From NCBI RefSeq assembly GCF_014643695.1, contig NZ_BMJY01000001.1, positions 310,001-374,000 of the forward strand: DNA of 64,000 nt. Direction: 5' to 3'. The DNA is from Microbacterium album. Lineage in GTDB: Bacteria > Actinomycetota > Actinomycetes > Actinomycetales > Microbacteriaceae. Under the pieces are notes generated by a model, which ran no database searches, was not told where the DNA came from, and was given only the letters and a program-made list of their open reading frames with translations. Both the position numbers and the translations under genes were made by a program. Below are positions 13,761 through 50,012 of the stretch, piece by piece (position 1 is the first letter of the stretch; every line of letters starts with the position of its first letter).

Positions 13761-15062
13761 ATGCCCACCCCCGAGACGGAAGTGCCCGAGGTCGTGCGCG
13801 TCGCGCGAGACCTGATCCGGTTCGACACCACGAACTGGGGCGCCGGGCGCTCCGAGGGCGAGCGCGAGGCGGCCGAGTACGTCGGGGCGTACCTGGAGGC
13901 GCTCGGCCTGCGGCCCGAGTACTACGAGCCGGCTCCCCGCCGGACCAACGTCGCCGCCCGCGTTCCGGGCCGCGACCCGAGCCGCCCCGCCCTCGTGCTG
14001 CACGGGCACCTCGACGTCGTGCCCGCCGTCGCCGAGGACTGGTCGGTCGACCCGTTCGCCGGGGTCATCCGCGACGGCATGCTCTGGGGACGCGGCGCCG
14101 TGGACATGAAGAACATGGACGCGATGATCCTGACCGCGGTCGCGGATCTGCTCCGGGCGGGCGAACAGCCTGAGCGGGACCTGGTGCTGGCGTTCTTCGC
14201 GGACGAGGAGAACGGCGGGGTCGACGGATCGCAGCGCGTCGTGCGCGATCGGCCGGAGTGGTTCGCGGGCGCCACCGAGGCCATCAGCGAGGTCGGTGGC
14301 TACTCGATCGCCGTCGGCGGACGGCGCGCGTATCTGCTGCAGGTGGGGGAGAAGGCCCTGATGTGGATCCGGCTCGTCGCGCGCGGCCGCGCCGGCCACG
14401 GCAGCCGCGTCCACCCCGACAACGCCGTCACGCGACTCGCGGAGGCGATCGCCCGGCTCGGGGAAACCCGCTGGCCCGTCGAACTCACGGACACGACGCG
14501 CGCGCTTCTCGAGGGAATCGCGGAGCTCGCCGGCAGCGCCAGCACGGATCCGGACGAGCTGGCGTCCTGCACGGGACCGGCGGATGCGTTCATCCGCTCC
14601 ACATACCGCACCGTCGCGAACCCGACCGGTCTGACCGCGGGCTACAAGCACAACGTCATTCCCGACCGCGCCGAGGCCACCGTCGACGTGCGCGTCCTGC
14701 CCGGTACCGAGGACGCCGTGCTCGCCGAGATCCAGCGGATCGTCGGCGACGACATCGAGATCGAGATGTTCTTCCGCGACATCGGCCTCGAGATCCCGTT
14801 CGCCGGGGACCTGGTCGAACAGATGGTCGCGGCGCTCGGCCGGCACGACCCGGGAGTCCCCGTCCTGCCCTACCTCCTGGGCGCGGGCACGGACAACAAG
14901 GCGCTCTCGACCCTCGGGATCGCGGGCTACGGCTTCGCGCCCCTCAAGCTCCCCGCCGACCTCGACTTCACCGGCATGTTCCACGGCGTCGACGAGCGAG
15001 TGCCGCTCGACGCGCTGGAGTTCGGTCGACGAGTGCTCGCCGACCTGCTGCGCTCCCTCTGA
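13761..15062 (+). CDS. M20/M25/M40-family metallo-hydrolase (dipeptidase/deacylase type)
   Basis: A 433-residue zinc hydrolase related to succinyl-diaminopimelate desuccinylase and ArgE. The first metal His and its neighbouring Asp are in LVLHGHLDVVP, the bridging Asp in GRGAVDMKNMDAM, and the general-base and metal Glu pair in FFADEENGGVDG. The dimerisation insert (about residues 195-310, WIRLVARGRAGHGSR) is present, and a final metal ligand lies in DFTGMFHGVDERVPL. Complete and of usual length. The specific substrate (peptide, acyl-amino acid) is not evident. ATG 13761 is preceded by TACGGT at leaderless spacing. Confidence 0.92.
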   Translation: MPTPETEVPEVVRVARDLIRFDTTNWGAGRSEGEREAAEYVGAYLEALGLRPEYYEPAPRRTNVAARVPGRDPSRPALVLHGHLDVVPAVAEDWSVDPFAGVIRDGMLWGRGAVDMKNMDAMILTAVADLLRAGEQPERDLVLAFFADEENGGVDGSQRVVRDRPEWFAGATEAISEVGGYSIAVGGRRAYLLQVGEKALMWIRLVARGRAGHGSRVHPDNAVTRLAEAIARLGETRWPVELTDTTRALLEGIAELAGSASTDPDELASCTGPADAFIRSTYRTVANPTGLTAGYKHNVIPDRAEATVDVRVLPGTEDAVLAEIQRIVGDDIEIEMFFRDIGLEIPFAGDLVEQMVAALGRHDPGVPVLPYLLGAGTDNKALSTLGIAGYGFAPLKLPADLDFTGMFHGVDERVPLDALEFGRRVLADLLRSL

Positions 15063-15125
15063 CCCGGCCACAGCCGGGAGCGGGAATCGCCCGTGCGGCG
15101 GACGGAACCGGCAACCTCCGTCGCC

Positions 15126-15131
15126 TAGAGT
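15126..15131 (+). promoter_or_regulatory. Candidate -10 (TAGAGT) for uppP
   Basis: TAGAGT about 48 bases before the ATG; the gene has its own GAAGGA ribosome site, so a short leader is expected. Confidence 0.35.
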
Positions 15132-15179
15132 CGTGAGGTCGTGCGTCCCCGCGGCCCTCCCCGAGAAGGAAAGACCCCC

Positions 15180-16013
15180 ATGTCGTTCATCGAAGCGATC
15201 ATCCTCGGCCTCGTGCAGGGGCTCACGGAATTCCTGCCGATCTCCTCGAGCGCGCACCTGCGCATCCTCGGCGAGGTCCTGCCGTCGGCGACCGATCCCG
15301 GTGCGACGTTCACCGCGATCACGCAGATCGGCACCGAGGCCGCCGTGCTGGTCTACTTCTGGAAGAAGATCGTGCGGGTCATCTCACGATGGGCGCAGTC
15401 GCTCGCGGGCCGCGTTCCCCGCAACGACCCGGACGCGCGCATGGGGTGGCTGGTCATCATCGGCTCGATCCCCATCGGCGTGCTGGGATACCTCTTCCAG
15501 GACGTCATCCGCAACGTCTTCCGAAACCTGTGGCTCGTGGCGATCGTGCTGATCGTGTTCGGCATCCTGCTCGGCATCGCCGACCACTTCGGGCGCCGCG
15601 CCCGCGACCTCGACGACCTCACCTACCCCAGCGGCGTCGCCCTCGGCTTCGCGCAGGCGCTCGCGCTCATCCCGGGCGTGTCCCGATCCGGCGCGACGAC
15701 CACCGCGGCGCGCGCCCTCGGCTACAAGCGCACGGCCGCGGCCGAGTACGCCTTCCTGCTCGCCGTCCCCGCGGTGTTCGGCAGCGGCTTCTACGAGCTG
15801 CTGCACGCGATCCGCGAGCCCGAGACGGGTCCGTACGGGATGGGCGAGACCGTCGTGGCCACGCTCGTCGCGTTCGTCGTGGGCTGGGTCGTCATCGCCT
15901 ACCTGATGCGCTACCTCAAGACCGGCAGCTTCCTGCCGTTCGTCATCTACCGCGTGCTCCTGGGCGGCACGATCCTGGTCCTGCTGGCGACAGGCGTGTT
16001 GAGCGCGTTCTGA
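15180..16013 (+). CDS. uppP: Undecaprenyl-diphosphatase (BacA/UppP)
   Basis: A 277-residue integral membrane phosphatase that recycles undecaprenyl pyrophosphate to the monophosphate for peptidoglycan synthesis; overproduction in other bacteria gives bacitracin resistance. Both signature motifs are intact: the N-terminal [15 protein letters not shown] (about residues 12-26, catalytic Glu and Ser) and [17 protein letters not shown] (about residues 165-181). Eight hydrophobic segments are visible. ATG 15180 has GAAGGA upstream; the open frame extends further up but the motif spacing fits this start. The stop is followed by a T-rich tract and then the repeat cluster. Confidence 0.96.
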
Positions 16014-16362
16014 TTTTCTTTCTCCCACGCGTCGGGCCCCGAGGGGCCGCTCCGCGAGGGAGGCGCTTCGCTTCGCTGCGCGCGCCGGCGCTGCGCGCCT
16101 GGTGGCGGGCGCACTCGCGCCCGCACGCTCGCTTCGCTCGCACCGGGTTGAGGTGGGTGGGTGGGTCTCGGCTTCGGCTCGCTGCGCTCGCTCAGCCCGT
16201 TTCGACTTCGCTTCGCTCCGCTCAACGACCGGAGGTGATGCGACGCCCAGGTTCCGCTCGTTGAGCGGAGCGGCGGAGCCGCGGAGTCGAAACGGGTTGA
16301 GCGGAGCCGCGCAGCGGCGGAGTCGAAACCGAGTGCAACCCGCCGCGGGGTGTGAGGGCGGG
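16014..16362. repeat. Palindromic repeat cluster (REP-like) between uppP and PAC2 gene
   Basis: A 349-base gene-free stretch of low-complexity GCTTCGCT/GCGCTCGC tracts. The core unit GTTTCGAC...GCTCAAC occurs three times: forward at 16198-16226 and inverted at 16261-16294 and 16297-16330. The inverted pair can fold into a long stem with the first copy. Such GTTTCGAC/GTCGAAAC palindromes are, as I recall, common in intergenic DNA of Microbacteriaceae. No gene is seen. Confidence 0.7.
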
Positions 16363-17253
16363 TCAGCGGCGGTCGTCGCGGCCGCGGCCGTCGCTGCGGC
16401 GCAGGTAGCTCTCGAACGCCTGGGCGATCGCGTCGCCCGAGGCCTCGGGGGAGTCCCACGTGTCGCGCGCCTGCTCGAGCTGGCGGATGTACTCGCGCAT
16501 GTCGTCGTCGTCCGCCGCGGCGGCGTCGATCGTCGCCTCCCACGTGGCCGCGTCGGCCGCGAGAGTGCCGCGGGGCACCGGGGCGGCGACCAGCTCCTCG
16601 AGCCGGTCGAGAAGCGCCAGCGTCGCCTTCGGGGACGGCGTGTGGCCCGCCACGTAGTGCGGCACGCTCGCCCACAGGCTCGCGGACGGGATCCCCGCGC
16701 GCTCGGCGGCATCGCCCAGCACGCTCAGCACGCCCACGGGACCCTCGTACGAGCTGCGCTCGAGCCGCAGCTCGCCGCGCAGGGCGTCGTTGTCGCTGCC
16801 CGCGAAGATCGAGATCGGCCGCGTGTGCGGGACGTCGGCCATCATCGCGCCCAGCGTCACGAACCCGGTGACGTCCTCGCGCAGCGCCACGTCCATGAAC
16901 TCGGCGGCGAACGCCTGCCAGGCGCGCGCGGGCTCGACGCCCGTGAGCACCCACAGCTCGATCGCGTCCGCCGCGCCGTCCGCGCGGGGCACGGGGCGGT
17001 GCAGCGTCGCCTCGGGCCACCGCAGGCGCCGCCGGCCGTCGCCGTCGACCCCGACCGTGGGCCGCGTGTACTGGTAGTCGAAGTAGAGTTCGGGATCGAC
17101 GCTCACGACAGGCTCGTAATCGCGCGCCGCGAGCAGCTGGCTCACCGCGCCGGTCGCGGCCTCGCCGGCATCGTTCCAGCCGTCGAATGCGGCGACGATG
17201 ATCCGGCGGCCCAGGGTCGTCGGCGCCTCGGTCTTCTCGACCTCGCGGTCCAC
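16363..17253 (-). CDS. PAC2-family protein (proteasome assembly chaperone-like), copy 1
   Basis: A 296-residue cytoplasmic protein of the PAC2 family, named after a eukaryotic proteasome chaperone. In actinobacteria its function is not established. Typical blocks are IIVAAFDGWNDAGEAATGAV near the N-terminus, then ELWVLTGVEPARAWQAFAAE, VTLGAMMADVPHTRP, and SASLWASVPHYVAGHTPSPK. The longer open frame starts at 17337, but GTG 17253 has AAGGAG four bases before it and lies just ahead of the conserved region. A second PAC2 gene lies at 41311. A Mycobacterium PAC2 gene sits in the same neighbourhood as the proteasome locus, whose core genes are missing here. Confidence 0.88.
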   Translation of the reverse strand: MDREVEKTEAPTTLGRRIIVAAFDGWNDAGEAATGAVSQLLAARDYEPVVSVDPELYFDYQYTRPTVGVDGDGRRRLRWPEATLHRPVPRADGAADAIELWVLTGVEPARAWQAFAAEFMDVALREDVTGFVTLGAMMADVPHTRPISIFAGSDNDALRGELRLERSSYEGPVGVLSVLGDAAERAGIPSASLWASVPHYVAGHTPSPKATLALLDRLEELVAAPVPRGTLAADAATWEATIDAAAADDDDMREYIRQLEQARDTWDSPEASGDAIAQAFESYLRRSDGRGRDDRR

Positions 17254-17364
17254 TCCGCTCCTTCCCGCCCGCCGCGCCTCGCGCCCGGCGGAGCCTCGTC
17301 CCAGGATAGGCGCGTCGGGGCCCGGTGGCGCCAGCACACGGCGATTGCGAGGGAGGGCGGCCGT

Positions 17365-17370
17365 TAGGCT
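17365..17370 (+). promoter_or_regulatory. -10 hexamer (TAGGCT), leaderless start of HAD phosphatase
   Basis: TAGGCT followed by 6 bases and GTG 17377. This promoter would serve the HAD-TrmI pair. Confidence 0.55.
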
Positions 17371-17376
17371 GTCACG

Positions 17377-18096
17377 GTGACTTCGCCCCTCAACCTCCCC
17401 GCCCGCTCCGTCGGCGCGGGGCCGCGCGCCGTCCTGTGGGACATGGACGGCACGCTCGTCGACACGGAGCCGTACTGGATCGCCGCGGAGCGGCCCCTCG
17501 TGGAGGAGTACGGCGGCACGTGGACCGAGGCCGACGGGCTGCGGCTCGTGGGGCTGAGCCTGGACGCCTCCGCCCGCATCCTCCAGGAGGCGGGGGTCCG
17601 CCTGTCGACGGACGAGATCGTGTCGACGCTCACGACGCGCGTGATCCGGATGTGCGCCGAGAAAGGCGTGCCCTTCCGTCCTGGCGCCGTCGAGCTACTG
17701 CGCGACCTGCGGGCCTCGGGGATCCGCTCCGGGCTGGTCACGATGTCGATGCGCCGCATGGCGCTCGCGATCGCGGAGCTGATCGACTTCGAGGCCTTCG
17801 ACGTCGTCGTCGCCGGCGACGACGCGCGCCGGCCCAAGCCGTACCCCGATCCGTATCTGCAGGCCGCGGAGGCCCTCGGCGTCGACATCGCCGACGCCGT
17901 GGCGATCGAGGACTCGCCCAACGGGCTCCGCGCCGCACTTGCATCCGGGGCCGCCACGATCGGTGTGCCGAACATCGTGCCGCTGGACGGGTACGGCGCC
18001 GAGCTGTGGCCCACCCTCGCCGGCCGGACCGCTGCCGACATCGTCGCGTTCCACGCGGCGCACACGCCCCTGGCGGCCGAGGGCGGCGTCTCGTGA
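17377..18096 (+). CDS. HAD-superfamily phosphatase (beta-phosphoglucomutase/CbbY-like)
   Basis: A 239-residue haloacid dehalogenase-like hydrolase. Motif I with both aspartates is LWDMDGTLVDTEPYW (about residues 21-35). A helical cap follows, motif II lies around VTMSMRRM, the lysine motif is VVAGDDARRPKPYPDPYL, and motif IV is AIEDSPNGLRAALASG. All catalytic residues are present. Substrates of this group are small phosphorylated metabolites; the actual one is unknown. The GTG start is leaderless-type. The stop overlaps the trmI start by four bases (GTGA), so the two are translated together. Confidence 0.92.
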   Translation: MTSPLNLPARSVGAGPRAVLWDMDGTLVDTEPYWIAAERPLVEEYGGTWTEADGLRLVGLSLDASARILQEAGVRLSTDEIVSTLTTRVIRMCAEKGVPFRPGAVELLRDLRASGIRSGLVTMSMRRMALAIAELIDFEAFDVVVAGDDARRPKPYPDPYLQAAEALGVDIADAVAIEDSPNGLRAALASGAATIGVPNIVPLDGYGAELWPTLAGRTAADIVAFHAAHTPLAAEGGVS

Positions 18097-42475: not shown

Positions 42476-43857
<1,382 letters not shown>

Positions 43858-43858
<1 letters not shown>

Positions 43859-44596: not shown

Positions 44597-45619
44597 TCAG
44601 AAGCCGATCGCGCGGCGGTAGCGCGGCTTGTGGCCCGTGCGGATGCCCGTGACGCTCGGCTTGTTCTCGTAGACGCCCGCGCCCCAGTTGCCCTCGACGA
44701 GCACGGGACCGTCGGGGGACACGACGACGTCCCACCCGACGTACTGCACCTCGGGGACCACGCGGGCCACCTCGTCGATGAACGCGCGCACCTCGTCCAC
44801 GAGAGGCAGGCGGAAGTCGGCGATGCGGAATCCCGTGTCGGGGTGCTTCTCGTGCACGTGTCCGTGTGAGTCGTAACCGGGTCCGAACGCGCGGCCGTCG
44901 TCGTGGAGCATCGTGTAGAAGCCGCCGTACGACATCTGGTCGCTCACGGCGCCGCGGCCGAATTTCTGCGCGGTCGCGAGGACGTGGACGTCCCTGCCGT
45001 CGAAGAACGCGGTGATGCGGGTCGTGTTGACCGTGCCCGGACAGACCGCGGCGAGGTCCGGGTGCTGCCGGATGACCTCCTCCAGCAGCAGCTCGTCGCG
45101 CTCGAGCAGACCGCGGTGGAAGGTCACCCAGTCCGTGACGTCGGCCGCGTGATAGCGCCGGACGCCGAGCCCCATGTGGCTCACCGGCACCTTCGCGATG
45201 ATCGTGCCATGCCGCTGCGCGAACTCACGCACGGCGTCGGCGTTCCCGGGCTCGACGACGAGCCAGTCGCGCTTCAGGAAGCGCGAGAACACGCGGTTGA
45301 ACTCGATCTTGTTCTCGAACAGGACGCGCTTGTCCTTGCGGGCGTAGCGCGCCGCAAGCTGCATCGACACGGGGTGCGTCATGTACGTGGCCCGCTCCTG
45401 CTTGGACAGGATGGCGAAGTCGTAGTCGACGTAGTCCTGGAAGGCGACGTCGTGGCGCGCGGCCGACCACAGCATGTCCGCGAACACCCGCGGCGTCCAG
45501 GCGCCGTGCTGTTCGTGCACCTCCCGAGCGCGCTCGGCCACCGACTTGATGTCGATGCGACGGGCCCGCTCCGCGAGGTAGCGGAGCTTGGGGCCGATGG
45601 CGAGGCCTTTGGCGGGCAT
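44597..45619 (-). CDS. ATP-grasp protein (sugar-transfer-associated type)
   Basis: A 340-residue protein resembling the sugar-transfer-associated ATP-grasp family (ATPgrasp_ST). These enzymes ligate a carboxylate to an amine or thiol at the expense of ATP. The ATP-grasp core starts at about residue 118. The ATP-binding lysine is probably in GTIIAKVPVSHMG, the hinge region is ELLLEEVIRQHPDLA, and the magnesium ligands are in VVSPDGPVLVEGNWGAG. The N-terminal 110 residues are helical. Family members sit in polysaccharide or cell-envelope loci; the substrate is unknown. ATG 45619 has GGAGGT upstream. It is divergent from the alanine-racemase-like pair, a context compatible with a cell-wall role but not proof. 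Confidence 0.75.
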   Translation of the reverse strand: MPAKGLAIGPKLRYLAERARRIDIKSVAERAREVHEQHGAWTPRVFADMLWSAARHDVAFQDYVDYDFAILSKQERATYMTHPVSMQLAARYARKDKRVLFENKIEFNRVFSRFLKRDWLVVEPGNADAVREFAQRHGTIIAKVPVSHMGLGVRRYHAADVTDWVTFHRGLLERDELLLEEVIRQHPDLAAVCPGTVNTTRITAFFDGRDVHVLATAQKFGRGAVSDQMSYGGFYTMLHDDGRAFGPGYDSHGHVHEKHPDTGFRIADFRLPLVDEVRAFIDEVARVVPEVQYVGWDVVVSPDGPVLVEGNWGAGVYENKPSVTGIRTGHKPRYRRAIGF

Positions 45620-45688: not shown

Positions 45689-46396
45689 GTGGATCCGACG
45701 ACCCTCAGCACGCACGGAGCCAGCGCCCCGCTGGCCCGCGTGTCGCGCACGGCGCTCGAGCGGAACGCCCGCCGGGCTCGAGAACGCGGCACGACGGCGG
45801 TGGATCTGCGCCGCGACGGCTGGGGACACGGCGCCGATGCGGTCGCGCGCGCGGCCGCGGCGGTCGGGCTCACGCACGCGGTCGTGGATGCGACGTCCGC
45901 GGCGGCCGCGCGGGAGGCGGGTCTTGCTCCCGCGCCTGGCGCGGACGCGTCGGGAAGCAACCTGGACGCGGCGCTCCTCTTCGGGTTTCCGGGCTCGGGA
46001 GGCACCCCCGTGCTGTCGCTGACGGCGCCCGTCCTGTCCGTCAAGGAACTGCGCGCGGGGGAGGGCGTGTCGTACGGCTACATCCACCGCGCCCCCGCCG
46101 ACACGCGCGTCGCGCTCGTGGCCGGCGGGTACGCGGAAGGCGTGGTGCGCGCGCTCGGCAGCCGGGTCGACGTCGAGATCGCCGGCCGCCTGCACCCCAT
46201 CGTCGGGCGTGTCGCGATGGACGTCTGCGTCGTGGACCTCGGCGACGCGGACGTGTCGCGCGGTGCCACGGTCACCTACTTCGGCGCGGGGCTGCGCCGC
46301 GACGCGATCGCCGAATGGGCGGCGGCCACGGGACTCAGCGCCGCGGAGCTCGTCGCCGCCGTGGGGCTGCACGTGCGGCGGGAGGTCGTCGAGTGA
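45689..46396 (+). CDS. Alanine racemase-like subunit A: C-terminal domain intact, PLP barrel mostly missing
   Basis: A 235-residue protein. Residues 15-80 align with the first two barrel units of alanine racemase, but the PLP-lysine position is Arg (TAVDLRRDGWGHG, residues 41-42 against VVKADAYGHG). About 150 barrel residues that normally hold the Arg136, His166, Ser204 and Arg219 equivalents are absent. From residue 107 the C-terminal domain is complete and well conserved: LSLTAPVLSVKELRAGEG, catalytic Tyr129 in GVSYGYIHRAP, GGYAEGVVRAL, and Met177-Asp178 in GRVAMDVCVVDLGD. Alone it cannot be a racemase. GTG 45689 is leaderless-type and the stop overlaps the next gene (GTGA). It is suspected to pair with subunit B. 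Confidence 0.85.
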   Translation: MDPTTLSTHGASAPLARVSRTALERNARRARERGTTAVDLRRDGWGHGADAVARAAAAVGLTHAVVDATSAAAAREAGLAPAPGADASGSNLDAALLFGFPGSGGTPVLSLTAPVLSVKELRAGEGVSYGYIHRAPADTRVALVAGGYAEGVVRALGSRVDVEIAGRLHPIVGRVAMDVCVVDLGDADVSRGATVTYFGAGLRRDAIAEWAAATGLSAAELVAAVGLHVRREVVE

Positions 46397-47427
46397 ACGC
46401 CGAGCTGCGGGTCGATCTCGCGCGATTGCGCGCGAACATCACGGCGGTGCAGGACCGGCTTCGACCGGCGGAGCTGATGATGGTCGTGAAGGACGACGCG
46501 TACGGTCACGGACTGGAGCCGGTGGTCGATTCCGCCCTCGCGGTCGGCGTCACGTGGTTCGGAGCCTTCGACGTGCCCACGGCCGTGAGGACCGCGGCGG
46601 TCACGGGCTCGCGCGCGCGGGTGTTCGCGTGGCTGACCGTGGGGGAGGACGAGATCGCCGCGGCGCTGGCAGCGGGAATCGAGCTCGGCGTCGGCGATGC
46701 GGACTATCTCGAGCGCATCGCCCGTGTCGCACCCGCGCCGGCCGCCGTCCACCTCAAGATCGACACCGGCCTGCACCGCAACGGAGTCAGGCCCGAGGCG
46801 TGGCCGGCCTTCGTGCAGCGCGCGGCAGCCCTGGAGGCAGCTGGACGCGTGCGCGTCGCGGGGATCTGGAGCCACATCGCCGAGGCGAGCGACGCGGAGG
46901 ACGATGTGTCGCGCGCGCTCTTCGACACCGCGGTCGCGGCCGCCCACTCCGCCGGTCTGGCTCCCGAGGTCCTGCACCTCGCCGCGAGCGCCGCGGGCTG
47001 GGCGCGCCCGGAGTTCCGCTACGACGTCGTCCGCGTGGGCGCGTTCTGCTACGGCGTGCGCTCGGCAGGCGGGCCCGATCTCGACGGCATCGCGCCCGCA
47101 GCCGCGCTCGTGGCGCGCGTGGAGGCGGTCGGGGCCGATTCCGTGCGTATCGGGGTCGGCGCGCTGGACGGTGTGCCCTCGACCCTCGGTGGCCGCATCG
47201 ATGTCGGAACCCCGGCTGGCGCGCGCGAGCTGCGGGCCGTGGGGCCGGTCGAATGCGTCGTCGCGTCGTGGCCCGGCGCGGCCGTCGGGGACGAGGTGAC
47301 GATCTTCGGACCGGGCACCGCGGGGGAGGGATCGGCCACCGACCTCGGTGAGGCGATCGACACCGTGGGGGAGGAGCCGCTCCTGCGGCTGTCCCCGCTC
47401 ATCCCGCGCGCGTACGAGAACCGCTGA
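46393..47427 (+). CDS. Alanine racemase-like subunit B: PLP barrel intact, C-terminal catalytic Tyr and Met-Asp missing
   Basis: A 344-residue fold-type III PLP protein. The barrel (residues 1-225) keeps PLP-Lys33 and Tyr37 (MMVVKDDAYGHG), Arg129 in KIDTGLHRNGV, His161 in WSHIAEASD, Ser199 in LAASAAGW, and Arg214 in YDVVRVGAFCYGV. The C-terminal domain is degenerate. The GEGVSYG-type loop with the catalytic Tyr is deleted (AVGADSVRIGVGALDGVPS), the Met-Asp pair is replaced (RAVGPVECVVASW), and the Tyr354 equivalent is Glu327. Asn203 is Ala. GTG 46393 overlaps the subunit A stop. Annotation pipelines would call this plain alanine racemase; the missing Tyr makes that doubtful unless subunit A supplies it. 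Confidence 0.87.
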   Translation: MNAELRVDLARLRANITAVQDRLRPAELMMVVKDDAYGHGLEPVVDSALAVGVTWFGAFDVPTAVRTAAVTGSRARVFAWLTVGEDEIAAALAAGIELGVGDADYLERIARVAPAPAAVHLKIDTGLHRNGVRPEAWPAFVQRAAALEAAGRVRVAGIWSHIAEASDAEDDVSRALFDTAVAAAHSAGLAPEVLHLAASAAGWARPEFRYDVVRVGAFCYGVRSAGGPDLDGIAPAAALVARVEAVGADSVRIGVGALDGVPSTLGGRIDVGTPAGARELRAVGPVECVVASWPGAAVGDEVTIFGPGTAGEGSATDLGEAIDTVGEEPLLRLSPLIPRAYENR

Positions 47428-47500: not shown

Positions 47501-47716
47501 TCAGACGGTCTCGTCGAGCCGCGCCGTCTCGTCGTGCCACGAGGTCGCGACGGCGCGCAGCTTCTCCTCGTACTTGCGGCCGTGGTGAGCGCAGAACAGC
47601 AGCTCGCTGCCGTTGACCTCGGCGGCGATGTAGGCCTGCGCTCCGCAGGAGTCGCAGCGGTCCATCGCCGTGAGGCGGTAGGAGACAGCGGGGGCTTCGG
47701 TCGTGGTCGTCGTCAT
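47501..47716 (-). CDS. Small zinc-ribbon-like actinobacterial protein (DUF7455 type)
   Basis: A 71-residue conserved actinobacterial protein of unknown function. One metal-binding pair is in MDRCDSCGAQAYIAAEV and a second Cys-His-His cluster in LLFCAHHGRKYEEKL, so it probably binds one zinc. No membrane segment or signal peptide. The frame is open to ATG 47743, but ATG 47716 has GAGGAGG upstream and homology-like sequence starts there. It is commonly found near sigA in actinobacteria. Divergent from parE. Confidence 0.75.
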   Translation of the reverse strand: MTTTTTEAPAVSYRLTAMDRCDSCGAQAYIAAEVNGSELLFCAHHGRKYEEKLRAVATSWHDETARLDETV

Positions 47717-47910
47717 GTCTGCCTCCTCGTTCATTCGATCCATGCGTACGTGCCGGAGTCGTCACATATAACCACGACGCCCTGACAATCCTGCCCGAGA
47801 GGGGCCCCGTTTCGCTCTGCGCGTACGCGGGCGGGAAGGGCTTGCGCGCGGGCCCGCGCGCACCCCCGCGACGCTGGGAGTGTCAGCGCGGTCGCACGGC
47901 CGGCGGCGGA

Positions 47911-47916
47911 TAGCAT
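47911..47916 (+). promoter_or_regulatory. -10 hexamer (TAGCAT), leaderless start of parE
   Basis: TAGCAT followed by 8 bases and GTG 47925. Confidence 0.5.
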
Positions 47917-47924
47917 CGAGGATC

Positions 47925-50012
47925 GTGACTGCCGAGTACTCCGCCCATCATCTCCAGGTCCTGGAGGGCCTCGAGGCCGTCCGCAAGCGGCCGGGAATGT
48001 ACATCGGATCGAACGGCTCGCCCGGGCTCATGCACTGCCTGTGGGAGATCATCGACAACGCGGTCGACGAGGCCGTCGCGGGCAACGGCGACCGGATCGA
48101 CGTCATCCTGCACGCGGACGGCAGCGTCGAGGTGCACGACCGGGGTCGCGGCATCCCCGTCGACGTCGAACCGCGCACCGGCCTGACGGGCGTCGAGGTC
48201 GTCTTCACCAAGCTCCACGCGGGCGGCAAGTTCGGCGGCGGCTCGTATGCGGCCTCCGGCGGCCTGCACGGCGTCGGAGCGTCGGTCGTGAACGCCCTGT
48301 CGGAGCGGCTCGACGTCGAGGTCGACCGCGGCGGCAAGACCTACGCCATGTCGTTCCACCGCGGCGAGCCGGGCGTGTTCGCCGACGAGGGCGAGAAGCG
48401 GCCGGACGCGCCGTTCACGCCGTTCGACGAGCGGAGCGAGCTGCGCGTGGTCGGCAAGGCGGCCAAGTCGGCCACCGGCACGCGCGTGCGCTACTGGGCC
48501 GACAGGCAGATCTTCACGAAGGACGCCGCGTTCCAGCTCGACGACCTCGTCACCCGCGCGCGGCAGACGGCGTTCCTCGTGCCGGGCCTCGAGCTCGTGA
48601 TCCGCGACGAGCGCAGCCTCCCGGACGGGGAGCCCGTCGAGACGTCCTTCCGGTACGAGGGCGGCATCTCGGAGTTCGTGGACTTCCTCGCGACCGATGC
48701 CCCGGTCACCGACACGTGGCGGCTCACCGGCTCGGGCACCTTCACCGAGACGGTCCCGACCCTCCAGCCGGACGGATCGATGCGCGCGACCGAGGTGGAG
48801 CGCGAGTGCGCCGTGGACATCGCGCTGCGATGGGGAACCGGCTACGACACGGCCGTGCGCTCGTTCGTCAACATCATCGCCACGCCCAAGGGCGGCACCC
48901 ACCAGCAGGGCTTCGAGCAGGAGCTGCTCAAGCAGCTGCGGGCCCAGGTCGAGGCGAACGCCCGGCGGCTGAAGGTCGGCAACGACAAGCTCGAGAAGGA
49001 CGACGTGCTCGCGGGACTCAGCGCTGTGCTCACCGTGACGGTTCCCGAGCCGCAGTTCGAGGGGCAGACCAAGGAAGTGCTCGGCACACCCGCCGTGCGC
49101 GCGATCGTGGCCAAAGTCGTGCGGGAGCAGCTCAAGGCCCGCTTCGCGTCGACCAAGCGCGACGACAAGAACCAGACGTCGATGCTGCTGGACAAGGTCG
49201 TCGCCGAGATGAAGGCGCGCGTGTCGGCGCGCGCGCACAAGGAGACGCAGCGTCGCAAGAACGCCCTCGAGAGCTCGTCGTTGCCCGTCAAGCTGGTCGA
49301 CTGCCGCACGCAGGACGTCGCCCAGTCGGAGCTGTTCATCGTCGAGGGCGACTCGGCGCTCGGCACGGCGAAGCACGCGCGCAACAGCGAGTACCAGGCG
49401 CTCCTGCCGATCCGCGGCAAGATCCTCAACGTGCAGAAGGCCTCGATCAGCGACATGCTGTCGAACGCCGAGTGCGCGTCCATCATCCAGGTCGTGGGTG
49501 CCGGGTCCGGGCGGACGTTCGATCTCGACGCCGCGCGCTACGGCAAGGTGATCATGATGAGCGACGCCGACGTCGACGGCGCGCACATCCGGACCCTGCT
49601 GCTGACGCTGTTCTACCGGTACATGCGTCCGCTCGTGGAGGCCGGGCGCGTGTTCTCGGCCGTGCCCCCGTTGCACCGTGTGGTCGTCATCCACCCCGGC
49701 TCGAAGCCCAACGAGACCATCTACACGTACAGTGAAGCCGAGCTGCACCGGCTGCTGTCGCGGCTGCGCAAGGCCGGACGCCGGTGGCAGGAGCCGATCC
49801 AGCGGTACAAGGGCCTCGGGGAGATGGACGCCGACCAGCTCGCCGAGACCACCATGGCGCGCGAGGGGCGCCTCCTGCGCCGCGTTCGGCTCGAGGACGC
49901 CGAGGCCGCCGGGCGCGTGTTCGAGATGCTGATGGGCAACGAGGTCGCCCCCCGCCGCGAGTTCATCGTCGAGTCGGCGGACCGGCTCTCGCGGGAGGCC
50001 ATCGACGCGTGA
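47925..50012 (+). CDS. parE: DNA topoisomerase IV subunit B (ParE)
   Basis: A 695-residue ATPase subunit of a type II topoisomerase that decatenates chromosomes with ParC. The GHKL ATPase has EGLEAVRKRPGMYIGSNG, EIIDNAVDEAVAG, HDRGRGIPVD, and SGGLHGVGASVVNALS. The TOPRIM domain has FIVEGDSALGTAKHARN and MSDADVDGAHIRTLLL. GTG 47925 lies 8 bases behind a TAGCAT and fits the family start; the frame extends upstream to 47880. parC lies convergently downstream, separated by DUF6412 and a YidC-like gene. ParE rather than GyrB is inferred from this context; gyrB normally lies by dnaA/recF. Confidence 0.92.
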   Translation: MTAEYSAHHLQVLEGLEAVRKRPGMYIGSNGSPGLMHCLWEIIDNAVDEAVAGNGDRIDVILHADGSVEVHDRGRGIPVDVEPRTGLTGVEVVFTKLHAGGKFGGGSYAASGGLHGVGASVVNALSERLDVEVDRGGKTYAMSFHRGEPGVFADEGEKRPDAPFTPFDERSELRVVGKAAKSATGTRVRYWADRQIFTKDAAFQLDDLVTRARQTAFLVPGLELVIRDERSLPDGEPVETSFRYEGGISEFVDFLATDAPVTDTWRLTGSGTFTETVPTLQPDGSMRATEVERECAVDIALRWGTGYDTAVRSFVNIIATPKGGTHQQGFEQELLKQLRAQVEANARRLKVGNDKLEKDDVLAGLSAVLTVTVPEPQFEGQTKEVLGTPAVRAIVAKVVREQLKARFASTKRDDKNQTSMLLDKVVAEMKARVSARAHKETQRRKNALESSSLPVKLVDCRTQDVAQSELFIVEGDSALGTAKHARNSEYQALLPIRGKILNVQKASISDMLSNAECASIIQVVGAGSGRTFDLDAARYGKVIMMSDADVDGAHIRTLLLTLFYRYMRPLVEAGRVFSAVPPLHRVVVIHPGSKPNETIYTYSEAELHRLLSRLRKAGRRWQEPIQRYKGLGEMDADQLAETTMAREGRLLRRVRLEDAEAAGRVFEMLMGNEVAPRREFIVESADRLSREAIDA

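Follow-up and report, generated by a model that had tools for sequence, protein, structure and literature searches.

The active site of homodimeric alanine racemase (Alr) combines Lys39 from one chain with Tyr265 from the other (PMC3485190). With the numbering of the G. stearothermophilus enzyme, which is used throughout, its residues include Lys39, Tyr43, Lys129, Arg136, Ser204, Arg219, Tyr265' and Tyr354; Tyr354 restricts alanine racemase to alanine, and lysine-preferred racemases have Thr or Ala at this position (PMC3485190). A 64,000-nucleotide stretch of the Microbacterium album genome (RefSeq assembly GCF_014643695.1, contig NZ_BMJY01000001.1, positions 310,001 to 374,000 of the forward strand; hereafter, the window) contains two overlapping genes, A and B, whose products appear to divide the residues of such a site between them. 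We consider it likely that the A and B proteins form an obligate heteromeric racemase whose substrate is a basic diamino acid, here probably ornithine, that becomes part of the type-B peptidoglycan cross-bridge.

Gene A (window positions 45689-46396, forward strand) starts with GTG, ends with TGA and codes for 235 amino acids; gene B (46393-47427, forward strand), with the same start and stop codons, codes for 344. The two genes share four bases, GTGA (46393-46396, forward strand), the start codon of B lying within the stop of A. An earlier note, made from the letters of the window, had given these coordinates, lengths and overlap, all of which proved correct on re-reading. Pfam searches identified A as an alanine racemase C-terminal-domain protein (Ala_racemase_C, E 1.9e-30, profile positions 1-126 of 127) and revealed no Ala_racemase_N match in it at E <= 0.1; B matched Ala_racemase_N (E 1.9e-47, profile positions 1-219 of 220) and the tail alone of Ala_racemase_C (E 0.0012, profile positions 75-127). 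Both proteins scored under the 168-bit cut-off of TIGR00492, the NCBIfam alr equivalog (109.2 bits for A, 110.5 bits for B). The AlphaFold2 model of B (mean predicted local distance difference test score, pLDDT, 95.8) had S. coelicolor Alr as its top Protein Data Bank (PDB) match (5fag; Z 41.6, root-mean-square deviation, rmsd, 1.7, 344 residues aligned), and that of A (mean pLDDT 90.0) had M. tuberculosis Alr (8b8h; Z 20.9, rmsd 2.0, 220 residues aligned). The predicted models therefore have the Alr fold, a barrel with a C-terminal beta domain, the barrel of A being partial: B is a barrel subunit, and A is a C-terminal-domain subunit that keeps a vestige of the initial barrel segments, in which D43, G46, H47 and G48 were invariant in 33 of 33 aligned relatives. 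A canonical alr, which the earlier note had allowed might exist elsewhere in the genome, was found (G000:C4:24235-25308(-)). Promoter and terminator scans gave no result.

The division of catalytic residues was quantified in an alignment of 87 distinct same-genus A-B pairs and 24 canonical Alr proteins. These pairs remained after identical ones were removed from the 124 loci kept, a set biased to high-scoring loci; a fusion in genome G090 fell below the score threshold and is outside the 87. The numbers His166, Met312 and Asp313 are presumed to be those of the G. stearothermophilus enzyme. Among B proteins, the PLP (pyridoxal 5'-phosphate) lysine, Lys39, and Tyr43 were each present in 85 of 85 readable sequences (two being unreadable at both positions), Lys129 and Arg136 in 86 of 86 each (one unreadable at both), and His166, Ser204 and Arg219 in all 87. 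The Tyr265 position was deleted in every B protein, and Met312-Asp313 was unconserved there. Tyr265, Met312 and Asp313 were found in A in 87 of 87 cases, with no random loss of the kind that the earlier note had named as evidence against complementarity, and Lys39 in none (Arg in 62, and also in A of the window). Thus, two co-inherited chains carry complementary catalytic residues: in the 87 pairs the PLP lysine is confined to B and the catalytic tyrosine to A, unlike in the Lyr and Bar types of racemase, which have both in one chain. The corresponding residues in the window, A Tyr129 (equivalent to Tyr265; codon 46073-46075) and Met177-Asp178 (Met312-Asp313; codons 46217-46222), and B Lys33 (the PLP lysine; codon 46489-46491), Tyr37, Arg129, His161, Ser199, Arg214 and Glu327 (Tyr354 position; codon 47371-47373), all on the forward strand, had been named from the window alone, Glu327 as a lost Tyr354 equivalent. 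They were invariant in all relatives aligned (33 of 33 for A, 32 of 32 for B), and the interpretation of the two proteins as complementary halves is supported. Two details were revised. B indeed lacks the inner-gate Tyr354 of alanine racemase, but this is not simple loss, as the position is Glu in 87 of 87 B proteins versus Tyr in 24 of 24 canonical Alr; and the absence of Asn203 is not specific to B, since all 24 canonical Alr proteins also have Ala there.

The two genes are inherited together. Among 149 same-genus genomes, that of M. album included, a strong match to A (E <= 1.7e-27) was present in 124 and to B (E < 1e-80) in 123, all of which have A; two genomes that were ambiguous by score, G091 and G090, proved to contain both genes on reading. 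The pair is present in 125 of the 149 genomes, neither gene is present in 24 (one of which, G046, is 81% complete), and no genome has a single member. Relatives with A and no B, which would have spoken against the earlier interpretation, were thus absent from the 149 genomes, as they were from 99 classed loci (see below). In G091 (locus L106), a 68%-complete genome, the surrounding sigA, parE and parC are broken, and sequencing error may account for the divergence of its B. The A/B junction in the 87 distinct pairs was an NTGA overlap in 80, TGATG in three, of another kind in three and a fusion in one; natural fusions, in which A and B form one open frame, occur in G089 and G090 and are indirect support for a physical A-B dimer. 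The ratio of nonsynonymous to synonymous substitution rates (dN/dS), calculated for the 18 nearest disjoint genome pairs drawn from 83 usable genomes, was 0.11-0.37 for A and 0.09-0.28 for B, indicating purifying selection on both genes. The single internal TGA that was marked in B matches from six genomes is the true end of the gene, lying 336-343 codons past the match start. Co-occurrence, order, overlap and residue retention are concordant; the A-B arrangement is beyond chance.

Diverged pairs situated beside sigA and/or parE were identified in other genera, and 33 of 33 had the same residue split. Their B proteins keep the seven barrel residues and have no Tyr265; their A proteins keep Tyr265 and Met312, with Asn replacing Asp313 in four of the 33 (the A protein of locus L287 has Lys in the Lys39 column, within a poorly aligned stretch). 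All 26 B proteins readable at the Tyr354 position have Glu or Asp there, the C-terminal part of the other seven lying outside the cut. Erosion of the A barrel is graded, the barrel profile being matched over positions 2-225 in L284 (where Thr replaces Lys39), 2-175 in L304, and ca. 2-159 to 2-148 in L289, L306, L276 and L301, with little or none of it left in most. Five regions contain two full-length tandem copies, one with Tyr or Trp and the other with Asp or Glu at position 354, all with Lys39, Tyr265 and Met312. Paralogues that are full-length single chains and carry Asp or Glu at 354 also occur beside canonical alr; in domain trees, which were read for topology only, they group with B by the N-domain and near canonical Alr by the C-domain. 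Many of 150 family genomes gave Alr-like matches alone. Eleven genomes of an order-level sample of 198 passed E 1e-24, seven from the same genus and four from outside the family; the latter matches align with ca. residues 77-232 of A only, lie in open frames of 479-1172 amino acids and are tentatively read as full-length Alr. Apart from these four, no pair was seen outside the family at E <= 1e-24, a threshold that also misses diverged pairs within the family.

A second split racemase was found in one genus, g78. In seven of its eight genomes the C-terminal domain is matched exactly four times, twice as a whole and twice in part, the matches forming two neighbouring pairs; no full-length alanine racemase was found in these seven genomes, and an N-domain search of G250 and G312 revealed no further full Alr. 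For the first pair, residues were read in two genomes, G250 and G312 (loci L280 and L278), and for the second in all seven (L279, L281 and L331-L335). The barrel subunit of the second pair has Lys39 and Tyr354, no Tyr265, and Ser in place of Met312; its partner has Thr in place of Lys39, and Tyr265, Met312 and Asp313 are present. The eighth genome, G515 (96% complete), carries a tandem of full-length copies, with Tyr354 in the upstream and Asp354 in the downstream copy, and the barrel subunit is upstream in the g78 split pairs as well. The C-domain tree, again read for topology, places the G250 and G312 partners among Asp354 paralogues. Because of this position and of the gene order matching that of the G515 tandem, the g78 partner may be what is left of a diamino-acid paralogue. 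A search of G250, G312 and the M. album genome for a D-amino-acid transaminase revealed none over the curated cut-off, but weaker homologues were found. Since D-alanine is normally essential, the g78 split pair, apparently the only alanine racemase visible in those seven genomes, would be the best available sign that the split architecture works.

Based on these observations, the A and B proteins would together make up an obligately heteromeric PLP racemase with the alanine-racemase fold. The barrel would come from B, which holds the PLP lysine along with the phosphate, Arg136 and Arg219 contacts; the catalytic tyrosine and the Met-Asp pair would be provided in trans by A, so that each A-B dimer would have one complete composite site. 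Glu327 of B, at the place of Tyr354, would open the pocket and could form a pair with the ammonium group at the far end of a basic diamino acid, and the product would be a D-diamino acid for the type-B cross-bridge of the wall. We infer dimer formation, racemase activity, the substrate, the use of the product and the roles of neighbouring ligases. Alanine is probably the wrong substrate, because a canonical alr is present, Tyr354 is replaced by an invariant Glu, and the neighbouring genes belong to ligase and amidotransferase families; in line with the suggestion in the earlier note that the pair might act on another amino acid, a basic diamino acid is more likely.

The left border of the locus is formed by a gene at 42476-43858 (forward strand), which we take from its sequence to be sigA; gene order here is conserved. 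It is followed by a gene for a CofE-like protein (F420 gamma-glutamyl ligase family, PF01996; 43855-44556, forward strand, start approximate) and by a gene for a divergent ATP-grasp protein (PF14397, Pfam E 5.6e-29; 44597-45619, reverse strand), a putative cross-bridge ligase, which lies 69 bases from A and had no relative among PDB sequences at E <= 0.1. On the right, the pair is followed by a gene for a DUF7455 protein (47501-47743, reverse strand) and, at the border, by a gene for a type II topoisomerase B subunit (parE/gyrB-like; 47880-50012, forward strand). The order LAP-PAC2-sigA-module-DUF7455-parE was observed in 11 of 12 same-genus regions read, the twelfth (L104) being a different ATP-grasp site; a CofE-like gene follows sigA in most of them, and parC lies past parE where the stretch extends that far.

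Loci were classed among the best 80 of 487 titled records with a PAC2 alignment, of which 74 hold both sigA and parE. Six of these 80 genus loci do not hold both genes, nor do 15 of the 40 family loci; with these left out, 99 loci were classed. Thirty-eight of the 74 genus loci contain CofE, one ATP-grasp gene and A-B; three contain CofE, two ATP-grasp genes and A-B; one, CofE and A-B; and ten, MurT, a GatD-like gene and A-B. The pair is absent from ten loci with CofE and one ATP-grasp gene, ten with CofE and two ATP-grasp genes, one with CofE alone and one with MurT and a GatD-like gene. No classed locus has A alone or B alone, and in none of the 99 does CofE coexist with an intact MurT/GatD pair; since the two were never both intact at one locus, the CofE-like protein may functionally replace MurT/GatD there. 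Strict confinement of the pair to the sigA-parE site was rejected, as it lies away from that site in the genomes of L121, L123, L125, L153 and L160.

Several individual loci deviate from the common arrangement. Ten loci with no A-B (L127, L138, L141, L144, L147-L149, L151, L152 and L154) have two tandem ATP-grasp genes at the site, which perhaps represent the L-lysine version of the cross-bridge module. The pair is inverted in L120 (Microbacterium sp. RU33B, ca. 13900-17700) and MurT/GatD are diverged (46% and 39% identity to L097), a possible replacement from another genus. DUF7455 directly follows the CofE-like gene in L107 (Microbacterium sp. Root180), with no ATP-grasp gene, A or B at the site and, beyond Alr-like matches, no A elsewhere in the genome. 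L123 comes from a record titled Planococcus sp. APC 4015, which is probably mislabelled, gene order and similarity being Microbacterium-like; in L164 and L166 (M. stercoris NEAU-LLB), the same locus recurs on two scaffolds with equal match coordinates and identities, which may reflect a duplication in the assembly.

A link to the cell wall is suggested by genomes in which homologues of MurT and GatD adjoin the pair. In the peptidoglycan precursor, MurT/GatD acts on D-isoglutamate, amidating its alpha-carboxyl (PMC6113224; PMC3266927). Among the GatD-like proteins at the locus (e.g., L097 5447-6202; L105; L276-L309), all 34 distinct sequences lack the catalytic cysteine, the position being Gly in 26, Ala in six and Thr in two; the catalytic His is retained in ten. 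The C94G substitution in S. aureus GatD abolishes glutamine-dependent and keeps ammonia-dependent amidation (PMC3266927). Given the loss of the cysteine, glutamine is therefore unlikely to be the nitrogen donor. A complex that activates the D-Glu alpha-carboxyl without a glutaminase could attach an amino acid there, which would fit a type-B cross-bridge, since the cross-bridge begins at that carboxyl: in Clavibacter, of the same family, D-diaminobutyrate bridges D-Glu to D-Ala (PMC9603630). The putative ligase role of MurT and the cysteine-less GatD draws on these family facts. More generally, the locus carries either MurT/GatD-like genes or CofE-like genes with ATP-grasp, some of whose families act on the D-Glu alpha-carboxyl elsewhere, their roles here being putative.

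Presence of the pair was compared with the wall type recorded for 11 species (PMC10757982, PMC10978784). A genome-wide check covered 25 of 26 genomes, the exception, M. arborescens, being judged by its locus only. In 18 of the 25, nothing better than an Alr-like match to A was obtained. A lies away from the usual site in M. schleiferi FXH-192, in M. enclense NIO-1002 and in the L123, L125 and L160 genomes; the L126 genome, with a fragment only, at a contig end, was left undecided. Seven species combine the pair with a reported ornithine wall: M. testaceum, M. suaedae, M. sorbitolivorans, M. galbinum, M. sufflavum, M. oxydans and M. schleiferi. The genomes of the last four are from non-type strains, and the wall type of M. 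oxydans follows what the paper says of its cluster and of the reference type strains. Two species, M. arborescens and M. saccharophilum, combine absence of the pair with a reported lysine wall. Three more species without the pair, M. hominis, M. flavum and M. paulum, belong to the M. lacticum clade, whose walls are taken to be of the L-Lys type.

Several findings weigh against a diamino-acid racemase of the wall. M. enclense NIO-1002 carries the pair and has a reported L-Lys wall, and M. radiodurans has no pair and a reported D-Orn wall, both species being outliers within their own clades (PMC10757982); with nine of 11 species in agreement and two in contradiction (Fisher p = 0.15), the correlation is not established. 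An ATP-grasp homologue at E <= 1e-10, present in 121 of the 149 same-genus genomes, is missing in 28, and CofE alternates with MurT/GatD, so the pair has no constant ligase companion. The neighbouring ligases are assigned their putative roles from family and position. Finally, Glu at position 354 is consistent with a basic substrate and is not proof of one; Lyr and Bar take lysine yet have no acid there (PMC3485190).

The best-surviving alternative, which we nevertheless regard as unlikely, is a heteromeric racemase with the same composite site that serves another amino acid or purpose, such as a second alanine or serine racemase or an enzyme of a non-wall metabolite. The complementary residues are equal evidence for it, and it would be favoured by the weak wall-type correlation and its two contradictions; against it speak the invariant acid at 354, the canonical Alr also present in this genome and, in most loci read, the ligase or MurT/GatD-type companions of the pair between sigA and parE. 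A still lower probability is assigned to B alone being a homodimeric PLP enzyme, with an altered chemistry that dispenses with Tyr265, and A being its regulatory or structural, prozyme-like partner. All PLP-binding residues checked are kept in B, and there are known enzymes that a dead paralogue activates (PMC5201418), but A holds Tyr265, Met312 and Asp313 in 87 of 87 pairs despite its eroding barrel, and a pure regulator needs no catalytic tyrosine. That A (or B) partners the canonical Alr and modulates D-Ala supply, as the common fold might suggest, is very improbable: A follows B and not Alr, 24 of the 149 genomes are without both, and 18 of the 25 genomes checked keep an Alr-like match yet have no pair; with A co-occurring with B across the 149 genomes, A as an Alr partner was rejected. 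Least probable of all is a decaying tandem duplicate or split pseudogene, for which the parts of normal alanine racemase missing from A and B and the varying erosion of the A barrel across the family could be cited, and simple decay, against which the earlier note had already argued, was rejected because dN/dS is far under 1 in all 18 genome pairs and the marked TGA is a genuine stop, the invariant catalytic residues, persistence of the pair in many genera and the fusions speaking against it as well.

We therefore favour the heteromeric diamino-acid racemase. A broader proposal, whose chances seem to us evenly balanced, is that the sigA-parE locus of Microbacteriaceae is modular and sets the chemistry of the type-B cross-bridge; that its racemase is an obligate heteromer which arose from tandem alr copies losing complementary halves of the active site; and that in one genus the essential alanine racemase independently took the same course, a former diamino-acid paralogue now being the tyrosine donor. 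If true, the pair and its neighbours would be candidate genes for the D-diamino-acid (type B2) wall cross-bridge of the family, a chemotaxonomic character would become testable from sequence, and the graded series of tandem full copies, a partly eroded copy, a split pair and a fusion would show how a homodimer becomes an obligate heteromer. Within the open-access literature, no direct report was found of a heteromeric alanine racemase, which is weak evidence of novelty, or of wall-type lists, and no genes for the D-diamino-acid (type B2) cross-bridge were found published.

Among known systems, homodimeric Alr (PLP fold type III; TIGR00492, PF01168 and PF00842) has the fold common to both A and B and likewise joins a lysine of one chain with a tyrosine of the other (PMC3485190); it consists of full chains, whereas here each chain is without the catalytic half of the other, and Tyr354 is replaced by Glu. 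The broad-specificity and lysine racemases Lyr, Bar and Bsr also have the Alr fold (B model versus Lyr, 4dza: Z 35.4, rmsd 2.1, 334 residues aligned) and a replaced Tyr354 (Thr391 in Lyr, Ala393 in Bar; PMC3485190). However, a single chain carries all catalytic residues in these enzymes, no acid occupies the Tyr354 place, and B is nearest in both sequence and fold to actinobacterial Alr rather than to them. The lipid II isoglutaminyl synthase MurT/GatD has homologues that adjoin the pair in a subset of genomes, but with the GatD cysteine lost in all 34 sequences. Trypanosome AdoMetDC/prozyme and deoxyhypusine synthase resemble the proposed A-B enzyme in being obligate heteromers of paralogues (PMC5201418, PMC3663545), in which one subunit is catalytically dead and activates the other; in the A-B pair, each chain instead appears to give part of the active site.

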